From an uncultured Flavobacteriaceae bacterium (GTDB lineage: Bacteria > Bacteroidota > Bacteroidia > Flavobacteriales > Flavobacteriaceae): DNA of 64,000 bases. Numbering within the stretch: position 1 is the stretch's first letter; the number at the start of each line of letters is the position of its first letter. A program made the position numbers and the translations under genes. The notes beneath the pieces were generated by a model. It was not told the origin of the DNA, did not search any database, and worked only from the letters and a program-made list of their open reading frames with translations. Positions 17,051 to 23,885 of the stretch are shown one piece after another. The stretch lies in the NCBI GenBank assembly GCA_905181825.1, contig CAJIZJ010000010.1, forward strand, positions 1 through 64,000. Direction: 5' to 3'.

Positions 17051-17407
17051 TTATTCTGTGCCTAATTTTAGTGTATTATCCGTTTCTTTTGCTGCAGAAA
17101 CAGCGATGATATCAATAATTTCTATTTTATTTTCCCATAAAATTTTTGGGTCTTTTTTTGTAGAGATAATTCCAGTTATTTCTACGTTTACCATATCTGT
17201 ATTACTTGTTTTGAATGACGCTGCTTTTTTATTTAATTCTATAGCTTTAGCATTTAAAAACACCCCATAAATTTCATTGTCATTTTGTAAAACTGCCGCA
17301 TCTTCAAAAAAGATATAGTTTCCTTTGATAGTCGTCAGTCCCTCAGGAGTTGAGTTTTTACAGCTTAAAACTGAAGTTATTAAGAGAAATATAAATATTC
17401 TTTTCAT
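17051..17407 (-). CDS. Small predicted lipoprotein between sufB and sufC
   Basis: Lipobox ITSVLSC; 118 aa beta-rich; no recognised domain. Confidence 0.6.
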   Translation of the reverse strand: MKRIFIFLLITSVLSCKNSTPEGLTTIKGNYIFFEDAAVLQNDNEIYGVFLNAKAIELNKKAASFKTSNTDMVNVEITGIISTKKDPKILWENKIEIIDIIAVSAAKETDNTLKLGTE

Positions 17408-18883: not shown

Positions 18884-19213
18884 TTATAAAGAAAAAGATT
18901 CTCCACACCCACAAGTGCGATTTGCATTGGGGTTATTAAACACAAATCCTGCTCCATTTAACCCTCCAGAATACTCTAGAGTAGTTCCAATTAGATACAG
19001 AAAACTTTTGGTATCAACTACAATTTTTACTCCATTATCTTCAAACAACTTATCACCATCGATCTGAGATTTATCAAACTTTAAGTCGTAAGACAAGCCT
19101 GAGCATCCCCCACTTTTTACACCAACTCTAACATAGTCTTTGCTGGGATCAAAACCATCTTCTTGCATTAATTGCAAGACTTTACTTTTTGCTGTTTCTG
19201 AAACTTTTATCAT
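18884..19213 (-). CDS. HesB/IscA/SufA-type Fe-S scaffold/carrier protein
   Basis: Conserved cysteines GGCSG and CGCGESF; start refined to MIKVSETAKSK (19213), ORF track start 19288. Confidence 0.93.
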   Translation of the reverse strand: MIKVSETAKSKVLQLMQEDGFDPSKDYVRVGVKSGGCSGLSYDLKFDKSQIDGDKLFEDNGVKIVVDTKSFLYLIGTTLEYSGGLNGAGFVFNNPNANRTCGCGESFSL

Positions 19214-19318
19214 AGTGCTTATATAGCTGCTTTCCAAATAGGGAACAAATATACAACATAAGGTGGGGATTTCCATAAATCCTAACATTATATTAATATA
19301 TGAGAAGATAGCTTTTAC

Positions 19319-20395
19319 CTATGGATTTGAAAATTTTGGGTTGCTTATAAAGTCCTCGTCTGTTAAGGTTAATAAAAAAGCCTTAAGGTTGGCTTTTTCT
19401 TGAAAACTGAGCTGCACACCTCCTTGAGCTACTTTTTTCATCAACGGGTCAATAGTTGTGGAGTTTTGAAGTCCTTCGCTATAGTGATTAATAACGTCTT
19501 CTAAAGTTGAAAATCGCCCATCATGCATGTAAGGTGCTGTAAAAATTAGATTTCTCAATGATGGTGATTTAAATTTCCCATCATCCGAAGGATCTCCTGT
19601 AACACGACCAAGGCCTAGGTCTGTTATCTCTGAATCTAAGCCATTATTGTGAAATTTATTGTCTGTCCATAGAGGGTTGTTTTCACTTCCGTGGCAATGA
19701 AAGCAATCGCCTTTTGATTCATCCATAAAAATATTAAATCCGCTAATCTCCTGTGCAGATAAATCGCTAGTTCCTAATAAATAGTTGTCAAATTTTGAGT
19801 TTGCAGAAATGAGAATTCTTTCAAACTGAGCAATGGCTTTTGAAACTAAAACAGAATCAATAGGTAGGTCTCCAAAAGCAGCCTTAAAGAGCTGTGGGTA
19901 CTCTAAATCTTGAGATATTTTTTCTGCTACTTCAGGCCAAGTGGTATGCATTTCAATTGGGTTAGTAATGGGCTCAAAGGCTTGGTTTTCTAGTCCGGAT
20001 TCACGCCCATCCCAGAAAAAACGATCTTCATAGTTCCATGCTAAATTAAATAAAGGCATTGAGTTCCTGATGCCGAAAAACCCATCAATTCCTTCGCTAA
20101 ATCGGCTACTATCCGTAAAAGCATTTGTAGGGTTATGGCAGCTGGCACAGGCTTGAGTGTTGTCTGCAGATAAAATTGGGTCATAAAATAATTTTCTTCC
20201 TAGTGAAATCCCTTCTTGTGTTTGAGGGTTGTTTGATGGAATAATAGGGTTGAGTATGAGGGATTCAAACAGTGGAGGAATTTGCAAAGGACTTGGAGTG
20301 GTTGTATTTACATAAGAATCTGTTGATTCTTTATTACACGACAACGCTAGGAGTGTCAATAAAAACGAGATTATATTTGATTTCAGAGTCCTCAT
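19319..20395 (-). CDS. Di-heme cytochrome c peroxidase / MbnH-like lipoprotein
   Basis: Two CXXCH motifs (CASCH, CFHCH), LGRKLFYDPILSADNTQACASCHNP, SLRNLIFTAPYMHDGRFSTLEDVINHY; lipobox LLALSC. Confidence 0.92.
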   Translation of the reverse strand: MRTLKSNIISFLLTLLALSCNKESTDSYVNTTTPSPLQIPPLFESLILNPIIPSNNPQTQEGISLGRKLFYDPILSADNTQACASCHNPTNAFTDSSRFSEGIDGFFGIRNSMPLFNLAWNYEDRFFWDGRESGLENQAFEPITNPIEMHTTWPEVAEKISQDLEYPQLFKAAFGDLPIDSVLVSKAIAQFERILISANSKFDNYLLGTSDLSAQEISGFNIFMDESKGDCFHCHGSENNPLWTDNKFHNNGLDSEITDLGLGRVTGDPSDDGKFKSPSLRNLIFTAPYMHDGRFSTLEDVINHYSEGLQNSTTIDPLMKKVAQGGVQLSFQEKANLKAFLLTLTDEDFISNPKFSNP

Positions 20396-20401
20396 TATGG
20401 G

Positions 20402-21172
20402 TTAGTTATTATTCACCAAAGTAAAAGCATTTTGTCCGTTCTCATACATAATTATTTGAGCCGCAGAATTTGGCATTAGCATTTGATTATAGTCATTTAG
20501 GTTCCAGGTGCTTGGATTTTTAAACCATTCAGCAATATTCATAGCAATATTAATTTCACCATCCTCTTTAATACTTACAGCACCCAAATTGACTCTAAAA
20601 AAGGTGTCTTGCGGAAAGCTCGGATTATCTCCTGGGTTGTCAACGGCTCTAATAGCGTGGTAATTATATCCTTGTTCTATATTATCAGTATTCAAAAACT
20701 TCCCATCCATTTGCATGTAGTGATAGCCGCCTCCAAGCATTAAAGGAACATTCCAAGATTCAGAATTGAGATCATTATAAGACCCGTTAGAGTTTTTTTC
20801 ATTTGTGAATCCAAATACAAATGAAATATTACTATAAGATCCGGTTTCAATTAGATCCGTGGTCACGTAAGCTAAAGAGCTATCATTTGCAATGTCGATC
20901 AGTCTATAGTCCTCTATTTCAATAGTTTGCCCATTATTTTTTGTCAATACAAGGTCAGAAATAAGGTAGCGCAAGCGCTCAATACTTAAAAGGTTTCCAA
21001 AGGCATTGGTGTAACTAAACGCATTCAAATCTGAGTTTGTAACCTGGACTCCATCCCAATGATGAGTAAACTTTAGACTTACAGTCGTTTGGCTCGTGCT
21101 ATCGTCCAAATCAGTATTGCAGCCATATAGCATCACAAGCGTTAAAGTTAAAAAAAGAGATTTCAGTTTCAT
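20402..21172 (-). CDS. MbnP family (copper-binding) lipoprotein
   Basis: SLKFTHHWDGVQV...IERLRYLISDLVL...GGGYHYMQMDGKF...YNYHA, typical of MbnP-like proteins; lipobox MLYGC; adjacent to a di-heme CcP. Confidence 0.85.
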   Translation of the reverse strand: MKLKSLFLTLTLVMLYGCNTDLDDSTSQTTVSLKFTHHWDGVQVTNSDLNAFSYTNAFGNLLSIERLRYLISDLVLTKNNGQTIEIEDYRLIDIANDSSLAYVTTDLIETGSYSNISFVFGFTNEKNSNGSYNDLNSESWNVPLMLGGGYHYMQMDGKFLNTDNIEQGYNYHAIRAVDNPGDNPSFPQDTFFRVNLGAVSIKEDGEINIAMNIAEWFKNPSTWNLNDYNQMLMPNSAAQIIMYENGQNAFTLVNNN

Positions 21173-22542
21173 TTTGCCTTAAGGATTAAAAGGTCTGTAA
21201 AGCCTTTGTTTTCTGTAATATCACCATTTGAGCTGTTAGTATCTCCAACGGCCACAACGGATCCATCTGTTAGTTCGGCCGCTCCATAGAAAAAATCAAC
21301 TTCACTGCCTCCAATGGTTTTCTGCCATTCTAAGTCCCCACTGCTATTTATTTTTAGAATTAAGGCGTCATTTTGACCTTTATTACTACTTAAGTCACCA
21401 TCTGAACTTCTTGAGCTTCCGGCAATTAAAAATCCATTATCTTGTGTTTTTGAAACGGATCTTCCGACATCAAAGTTCGTTCCACCCAAGGTTTTTTCCC
21501 ATATTAGAGATCCTTCGGAATTAATTTTAATCATCCATAAATCAGCAGCCCCTCTGTTTTGAGAAACGTCAATGTTAGCACTTCTAGTATCTCCTACAAC
21601 TAAGTAATTGCCATCTGCTGTATTACTTATGGCACGTGCTTCGTCAATTTCGCTGCCACCAAACGATTTTTCCCAAACTAAATCACCTGTGTTAGAGATT
21701 TTAATAACCCAAAAATCGTAAGAACCTTTATTGTTTGCAACGTCAACGTCATTGCTATCTGAAGAGCCCACAATAATATAGCCATTGTCTTCAGTTTGAA
21801 TGGCGTCGTAAGCTGTGTCTGTAAAGCTCCCGCCATAATAGTTACTCCATTCTTTAATGCCATTAGCATTTAATTTAATCACCCAATAGTCTCCACCAGC
21901 ATGCCTGCGTTGTGAGCTTGAAACTCTATCGCCTTGACCGTTTGAGGCTGTTACATCCAACACTCCTGACACTAAGTACCCATTGTCATTTGTCTGTATA
22001 ACAGAGTAGGGGACGTCACTTCCTGCGTACCCAAAGGAATATTCCCACAAAATTGAACCATTTCCGTCTAATTTAATCATCCAAAAGTCGTCATATCCTG
22101 CGTTTTCAGAAACATCAAGGTCTTCACTTTTACTTTTTCCAATCACAGTATAACCACCCTCTGAAGTTTGAATTATATCAGTACCCCGATCGTCATCACT
22201 CCCACCATATGTTTTTTGCCATTCCAACTCGTTTAAAATATTAAACTTCAGAACCCAGTAATCATAGGACTCATTAGATTTACCTGCGATATCTCCATCC
22301 ATACTCTGAGTGTGCCCAATAACAGCATAGCCTCCATCGAAGGTTTTAATTACGGACTGTCCACTCTCGTTTTTGGAACCTCCTAAAGTTATGACAGACT
22401 CAATTTCTAAAGGAATGCCACCACTTGTTTGAGAATCTTTTTCTTTAGAACACTTCAAGAGTATTGTGCTGGCAAACAGCCAAAAGACTAATAAATAATA
22501 GTTGTAAATACTATAGTACATAGCTTGAAAATCAAAAATCAC
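21169..22542 (-). CDS. Seven-repeat beta-propeller-like lipoprotein
   Basis: Repeats of the form DxWxxKxxxxGxxxWxxxxGGSxxDxxxxxxxTxDxGxxxxGxxxSxxxDvxxNkG; alternative start MYYSIYNYY at 22521; lipobox-like TILLKC. Confidence 0.75.
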   Translation of the reverse strand: MIFDFQAMYYSIYNYYLLVFWLFASTILLKCSKEKDSQTSGGIPLEIESVITLGGSKNESGQSVIKTFDGGYAVIGHTQSMDGDIAGKSNESYDYWVLKFNILNELEWQKTYGGSDDDRGTDIIQTSEGGYTVIGKSKSEDLDVSENAGYDDFWMIKLDGNGSILWEYSFGYAGSDVPYSVIQTNDNGYLVSGVLDVTASNGQGDRVSSSQRRHAGGDYWVIKLNANGIKEWSNYYGGSFTDTAYDAIQTEDNGYIIVGSSDSNDVDVANNKGSYDFWVIKISNTGDLVWEKSFGGSEIDEARAISNTADGNYLVVGDTRSANIDVSQNRGAADLWMIKINSEGSLIWEKTLGGTNFDVGRSVSKTQDNGFLIAGSSRSSDGDLSSNKGQNDALILKINSSGDLEWQKTIGGSEVDFFYGAAELTDGSVVAVGDTNSSNGDITENKGFTDLLILKAK

Positions 22543-23779
22543 TTCTTCTTATAATAAATAAACCTCTGTCGATGTCGCTAATTATAATGTTTTCACTTGT
22601 AAAAAACGGATATATATTCCAAACACCATCAAATGCTGCACTATCATTTTCTGGATAGGTGTCAAAAAAGCCAATTTCAGAGATCGTATTGTTTTCAATT
22701 TGAGATAAGTCTAACACACGAATACCCGCCGTATAATTGGCTAAATAATAATCATCTCCATTTGTATAGCCGTTGTGATCAATAGCTAGAGTTGTTCCTA
22801 AATAGTCAAAATCGTACAAAGGATTATCCAAGTCAGTAAAGTCAAAAATAATTGTGCGTGTGTTCGTTCCAATGTTTAATTCATCTTTTTCATCGCCTAC
22901 TATAAAATGAATTAAATCTTCAGTAAACCAACCTTGATGGGTATACCCAATATTTGAATAGGCTATAGTTGAAATTGTGATTGGATTTGCTTTGTCAGAA
23001 ACATCAGCTATAACAATTTCAGTCTCATTGCTTCCTACTAATATTTCTTTTCCAGTATAGTCAACATCAGGACCAGAATAATTAACCACTTGTGCATCAT
23101 GAGAATACCCTCCCTCAGCAAATCCGCCTTCTGAAATGGGTGCTGCAGGGTTTTGAATATTTATAAACAGGGCACCTCCAGAAAAAGGCCCATTTCGATT
23201 TGCGCCTACCACGTAAGCATAGCCTGAGGACTCGTTAATAACAATATTATGAGCCTGGCCAAAATCTGTAAAATGGGAGTCAGCAGTAAATATTTCTGGG
23301 GCATTAGAGACGTTTTTAAGCCGGGTAAGGTCAAAAACTTGCATTCCATGCCCTGGAGCTTCACTTACAATAAAGGCATGATCTTGATATACTTTTATAT
23401 CTCTCCAAGAGCTGTTTACAGTCGCTGTTGGTAAAACGCCAATCAGTAGTGGCGCCACAGGATTGCTTATATCTACAAAAGCTGCATGAGAATTGAGCCC
23501 TACGAGCGCATATTCCTTATTAGTTGTTGGGTCCGTCCAACCCCATGAATCATTTCCAGAGAGACTGCCTGCGCCAGTACCAGGAGTCAAATCTTGTAAA
23601 GACATATAACTCATAAGGTCATAGCCATTACAGGGGTATATGTCAGCCATTCCATTTTCACAGGGCCAAGTAGCAGTATAGGTTTGAGGGGCTAATTCGT
23701 CTCCATAAGTTTCGTTGCCACAGGAAGTTAATAGCCCAATTGCGATACACAGTATTAAAAAAGGTTTTTCTACATTCAT
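22532..23779 (-). CDS. Choice-of-anchor B family (LVIVD-repeat) lipoprotein
   Basis: WGWTDPTTNKEYALVGLNSHAAFVDISNPVAPLLIGVLPT...SWRDIKVYQDHAFIVSEAPGHGMQVFDLTRL; lipobox GLLTSC; start refined to MNVEKPF (ORF start 23791). Confidence 0.88.
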   Translation of the reverse strand: MNVEKPFLILCIAIGLLTSCGNETYGDELAPQTYTATWPCENGMADIYPCNGYDLMSYMSLQDLTPGTGAGSLSGNDSWGWTDPTTNKEYALVGLNSHAAFVDISNPVAPLLIGVLPTATVNSSWRDIKVYQDHAFIVSEAPGHGMQVFDLTRLKNVSNAPEIFTADSHFTDFGQAHNIVINESSGYAYVVGANRNGPFSGGALFINIQNPAAPISEGGFAEGGYSHDAQVVNYSGPDVDYTGKEILVGSNETEIVIADVSDKANPITISTIAYSNIGYTHQGWFTEDLIHFIVGDEKDELNIGTNTRTIIFDFTDLDNPLYDFDYLGTTLAIDHNGYTNGDDYYLANYTAGIRVLDLSQIENNTISEIGFFDTYPENDSAAFDGVWNIYPFFTSENIIISDIDRGLFIIRRSDF

Positions 23780-23885
23780 AATTTCACACAATTAATCGAT
23801 CCCCAAAACTACATCAAAAACTGAAAAGAACTCCAAAACTATTGAATTACTTATCAAATGTGTCTGAAATCTACCAAAAGCGCCT

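Follow-up and report, generated by a model that had tools for sequence, protein, structure and literature searches.

The window, by which we mean the whole 64,000-nucleotide stretch of DNA that was analysed (contig CAJIZJ010000010.1 of an uncultured Flavobacteriaceae bacterium), contains a block of four adjacent, co-directional open reading frames on the minus strand. In the direction of transcription they encode a choice-of-anchor B (LVIVD) lipoprotein (22532..23779 from an ATG, or 22532-23791 with the alternative start), a seven-repeat SBBP/beta-propeller lipoprotein (21169..22521 from an ATG; a GTG at 22542 is also possible, giving 21169-22542), a variant MbnP lipoprotein of 256 aa (20402..21172) and an MbnH/MauG-like di-heme lipoprotein of 358 aa (19319..20395). 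A previous sequence-only reading had described four closely packed, co-directional genes directly upstream of suf, and our check of the open reading frames recovered all four at the positions noted earlier, each product carrying a lipobox-like N-terminus and the translations containing the motifs GGGYHYMQMDGKF, CASCH and CFHCH as quoted. Of the short junctions given there, the 4-nt overlap and the 6-nt gap hold irrespective of the start codons chosen, whereas the 11-nt overlap between the LVIVD and the propeller gene becomes a 10-nt gap when ATG is used instead of GTG/TTG. The suf genes indeed follow the block in transcription, starting at about position 19213 behind a gap of about 105 nt with a sufA-like gene (Fe-S_biosyn, Pfam PF01521, 8e-18; 18884..19213, minus strand), which we judge to be a neighbour outside the module. 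The presumed lipid Cys of the seven-repeat propeller is directly preceded by Lys (LLKC, 22440-22521), an unusual lipobox in which many relatives have Ser. Between sufB and sufC, inside the suf operon, lies a gene for a small lipoprotein of unassigned family that has no Pfam match (17051-17407), the place of which is taken in several other genera (e.g. L220) by a lipoprotein of metallo-beta-lactamase fold.

The arrangement of the block is not due to chance, since the same four-gene order recurs in all of the 80 loci taken from named species or genomes, several of which end early at contig ends. Our survey thus bears out a conserved synteny. Of the 201 sampled Flavobacteriaceae genomes, 100 encode members of the MbnP family, in at least two sequence types, and the type present in the window was found in one context: divergent thiL, LVIVD in one to four copies, propeller, MbnP, MbnH, sufA, sufB, usually a small lipoprotein, sufC and sufD. 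Clusters of this order were detected in at least 50 sampled Flavobacteriaceae genera, with median gaps of 8, 2 and 5 nt between the four genes and of 150 nt to sufA. The four-gene operon, probably of surface lipoproteins, is widespread in marine flavobacteria. In some genera (L033, L038, L060, L063) the LVIVD gene stands in tandem, in up to four copies, on the thiL side of the block. One genome carries an insert of roughly 4 kb that splits mbnP from mbnH (L238:6459-10530) and encodes a large extracytoplasmic protein and a response-regulator-like ORF. Regarding the location of the products, acidic residues behind the lipid Cys act as an export signal of surface lipoproteins in Bacteroidota (PMC5080379). 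Such residues often follow the lipid Cys of MbnP and of the seven-repeat propeller, which is suggestive of a surface location for these two proteins; the resemblance is weak for MbnH and LVIVD, for which detection of the lipid Cys by pattern is noisy, and a surface location is accordingly less well indicated for them.

The MbnP-like protein is a true relative of MbnP that belongs to a distinct branch of the family. It matches the Pfam family MbnP (PF20243) with 2.8e-26 and 93.0 bits against a curated cut-off of 27, and a fold search with its AlphaFold2 model (pLDDT 84.4) returned, as the only matches at E <= 0.001, the six chains of the Methylosinus MbnP structure 7l6g (E 3.3e-7). The fold match is remote (TMq 0.48-0.58, 12% identity). 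Neither phmmer with the protein from the window nor a first mixed profile matched an MbnP structure, which was reached by a wider profile and by the fold search, and the model TIGR04052 (MbnP_like_WxW) gave no match to the window protein at E <= 1. The homology to MbnP that had been proposed is therefore borne out by the Pfam cut-off and the fold match. The same is true of the absence of methanobactin genes, as a search by family for a homologue of the biosynthesis protein MbnB (PF05114) found none in this 77%-complete genome.

The di-heme protein contains the two heme-binding motifs CASCH (C83-H87) and CFHCH (C231-H235) as well as Trp128 and Tyr305, and matches Pfam CCP_MauG with 1.8e-56. Among the NCBIfam models, the MbnH family TIGR04039 ranks first with 264.9 bits, below its curated cut-off of 362.85, followed by MauG (TIGR03791) with 178.4 bits, and the best PDB match is 6e1c ('Di-heme enzyme', 2.4e-53), which we take to be MbnH of Methylosinus trichosporium. 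The Tyr of the window enzyme aligns with a Tyr at the same place in 6e1c, and the aligned MbnH residues serve there as ligands of two hemes, as axial Tyr ligand and as bridging Trp. Both CXXCH motifs, Trp128 and Tyr305 are kept in 141 of 141 MbnH partners. Since the protein is a member of the di-heme peroxidase superfamily, it might also serve, at the surface or in the periplasm, as a peroxidase or in electron transfer, with MbnP as a structural partner of which no residue is modified. However, classical peroxidases score below MbnH for the window enzyme, the MbnH and MauG models being ahead, and classical di-heme peroxidases have a Met where MbnH has the Tyr. By its profile and alignment matches, the protein is thus assigned to the MbnH branch of the MauG family, which upholds the MbnH-type identity proposed before.

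The sequence-only reading had taken the oxidation of an MbnP Trp to kynurenine, supporting copper binding, as the template for this locus. In an alignment of members from many Bacteroidota families with 7l6g, the canonical motif reads M-x-W-x-W-x-x-G and is followed by a conserved His. Work attributed to Manesis et al. in 2021 is said to have found that the first Trp is converted to kynurenine and that a Cu(I) site is formed from a His, a Met and the kynurenine. The residues of note in the protein of the window are W39, E138-S-W140-N-V142, GGGYH151, H172, W216, W223 and M233. By alignment, W140 corresponds to the first of the two Trp in WxW, and H172 to the His that is conserved among canonical MbnP proteins, so that the oxidisable Trp is present in the window itself, where the old target could still serve. 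Canonical chemistry, in which MbnH turns W140 into kynurenine and a Cu(I) site is built with H172, would agree with these two alignments and with the retention of W140 in 95 of 142 window-type sequences. Yet none of the 142 has the Met two residues upstream, at position 138, the second Trp is kept in 11 and gone in 131, where Val takes its place (WNV in the window), and position 140 itself is Phe in the remaining 47. These 47 forms are devoid of any WxW and of Trp at positions 136-146, while W216, W223, H151, H172 and M233 are all kept. The switch between Trp and Phe requires 6 to 7 changes by parsimony, of which well-supported branches force only two, and both states occur within Hyunsoonleella and within Seonamhaeicola. 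A persisting canonical mechanism therefore appears unlikely to us. Because the signature is broken and F140 occurs in 47 sequences with MbnH intact, the known kynurenine-copper chemistry is not general in this branch, and the proposal is not borne out in the form in which it was made: the Met and the second Trp are lost, and a third of the relatives have Phe in place of the first Trp.

All 46 MbnH partners paired with an F140 MbnP retain the heme motifs, Trp128 and Tyr305, and this conservation indicates that MbnH is still under constraint in the branch despite the loss of the known target Trp. Retention of the enzyme without its target would also be in keeping with the peroxidase function considered above, in which no residue of MbnP is modified. 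Against this stands a strict co-typing: window-type MbnP is always paired with window-type MbnH, and five WxW-type MbnPs at the same site always go with the other MbnH type. This argues that the relation of enzyme and partner has probably been kept, and together with the profile ranking and the aligned Tyr it makes a peroxidase or electron-transfer role rather improbable. H151, H172, W223 and M233 are invariant in 142 of 142 sequences, H172 being retained from the canonical protein and GGGYH151 and W223 being new invariants.

The two propeller proteins had been regarded as unassigned partners of MbnP and MbnH, a description that proved too narrow, because the pair is able to persist without MbnP/MbnH in 13 genera. 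Among the typed genomes, an MbnP/MbnH pair without the propellers was never found at the thiL-suf site. The seven-repeat propeller matches the NCBIfam SBBP lipoprotein model below its cut-off (1.8e-14) and the propeller region of CylK in the PDB (7.4e-23), and is conserved across 160 aligned sequences. The LVIVD protein is covered by TIGR04312 (5.4e-161, 535.9 bits against a cut-off of 100), and its AlphaFold2 model (pLDDT 90.3) is seven-bladed as judged from the strand pattern. At or next to the starts of the innermost strands of the blades lie W79/W81, W125, H177, H227, H281, H335 and W387, a ring that is conserved in all groups, including 13 of 13 genera without MbnP/MbnH at the site, and in 20 of 20 members outside the family (W81 in 18, Tyr in two). 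The top fold match of the model, before generic WD-type propellers, is the Sphingobium phosphotriesterase 5hrm, presumably a metalloenzyme. The near-invariant ring of four His and Trp and this fold match suggest a candidate metal site in the choice-of-anchor B family, which is without known function. A literature search found no paper on these propellers together with MbnP. One of the genomes that have the propellers alone encodes, between the LVIVD gene and thiL, a large lipoprotein that combines PA14, DUF7133 and cytochrome c domains (L201:8706-11621). Given its four His and three Trp at the blade starts, the LVIVD protein might itself be matured by MbnH, as has been proposed for MauG homologues beside the SBP56 methanethiol oxidase, a precedent with SCO1 and MauG neighbours (PMC5739008). 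Since the ring is kept where MbnP and MbnH are missing and essentially kept in the 20 outside members, the LVIVD site would be independent of the MbnH of the block. This full conservation weakens the proposal, which we regard as improbable.

The position next to the Fe-S assembly operon suf had suggested a metal-homeostasis link as an attractive but unproven idea. In one form of such a link, the block would be co-transcribed with suf and answer a metal stress harmful to Fe-S clusters. The adjacency is retained over many genera: both thiL and suf were placed in 128 genera, and in 125 of these they lie next to each other in divergent orientation, no more than 20 kb apart; 52 of these 125 junctions belong to genomes with block-type MbnP. 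However, about 47 other genera have 0.46-1.3 kb between thiL and sufB, which leaves space for little beyond sufA and is too small for the block, and in one genome (L217) a complete block of the WxW type stands apart from suf. Among 92 genomes typed by sequence, 50 have the window-type block and 5 the same block with an MbnP/MbnH pair of the WxW type; only the two propellers are present in 13, only LVIVD in 1 and none of the four in 23. These states change 25 times on a SufB+ThiL tree, a quick tree with many weak forks on which the counts do not separate gain from loss. Between mbnH and sufA lies a Bacteroidota -7 box, TATATTTG (19246..19253, minus strand), a candidate for a separate suf promoter, and the pattern TAnnTTTG recurs there in 127 of 129 loci, where shuffled sequences would give 20.6. 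It mostly lies within a narrow range of 25-35 nt from the reference point used; counted from the MIKV start codon, the distance is about 9 nt longer. Given this conserved box, suf very probably has its own promoter, although transcriptional read-through from the block may occur. Upstream of the LVIVD gene, pattern matching yields the candidate -7 box TAGTTTTG (23804..23811, minus strand) and a second one at 23834-23841; in relatives such a box is found in 49 of 123 loci against 21 expected, at no fixed distance, and is thus a weak signal. Scans for sigma-70 consensus promoters did no better than shuffles, as expected for a host from the Bacteroidota. The conserved sufA box and the block-free thiL-suf junctions make a functional connection to suf unlikely, and the specific scenario of co-transcription under metal stress is very improbable. 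The adjacency of block and suf is most likely an inherited position, the old thiL-suf gap being empty in many genera.

We consider that the locus is best read as an operon whose lipoproteins handle a metal, most likely copper, at the outer membrane and whose MbnH acts on a residue of MbnP other than the canonical one, and we put the probability of this reading at roughly one half. The four lipoproteins would act on the metal at the outer membrane, and MbnH would oxidise a residue of MbnP as in the known pair, with target and metal site relocated. Such a relocation is suggested because the M-x-W-x-W motif is broken, H172 is kept and H151, W223 and M233 are newly invariant; W223 would be the best candidate target and H151 and H172 the best candidate ligands, but the invariance of W223 could reflect folding alone. 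The propeller pair would form the base of the module, to which MbnP and MbnH would be an addition, and the suf operon would be a separate transcription unit. A more far-reaching version, which we put forward tentatively and with the odds against it, holds that MbnH makes a protein-derived cofactor or metal site unlike kynurenine-copper on a relocated MbnP residue, again with W223 as best candidate, within a surface complex on a metal-binding propeller ringed by four His and three Trp. To our knowledge, MbnH/MbnP is among very few known enzyme-partner pairs that build a metal site by Trp oxidation. The enzyme of this branch may make a modification other than the known one, and a natural branch that repeatedly swaps the target Trp for Phe while keeping the enzyme offers a direct test of other MbnH-type chemistry. 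The branch is common in marine flavobacteria and, if it handles copper, would represent a widespread, unstudied surface system.

When compared to the pair of Methylosinus trichosporium OB3b (7l6g, 6e1c), the flavobacterial proteins are alike in their families, adjacent genes, MbnP fold, the His after the GY strand, and the heme and Tyr layout of MbnH, but their branch has not kept M-x-W-x-W, the window protein has no TIGR04052 match, and the genes are not beside methanobactin genes and are tied to two propellers. The WxW-type pairs of Bacteroidota (TIGR04052/TIGR04039) are homologous, and in five genera such a pair occupies the thiL-suf site together with these propellers. They differ in keeping WxW, in an HHVHN-like C-terminal tail and in having neither GGGYH nor W223, and their MbnH is about 40% identical to that of the window. 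The SBP56 methanethiol oxidase, too, is presumably a propeller. It is a copper protein in which His and Trp residues are conserved, encoded in an operon of mtoX, SCO1/senC and mauG (PMC5739008); in contrast, LVIVD belongs to another propeller family, and the block has no SCO1 gene and contains MbnP instead. The CorA/CorB and MopE/SACCP systems of methanotrophs, compared here through the literature only, combine a secreted copper protein, in which a Trp near Cu(I) is converted to kynurenine, with the gene of a di-heme peroxidase-like protein (PMC3912023). The sequence of MbnP shows no marked similarity to MopE or CorA (PMC3621798), and the likeness of our locus to these systems lies in a copper- or metal-protein candidate that is encoded together with a di-heme protein.
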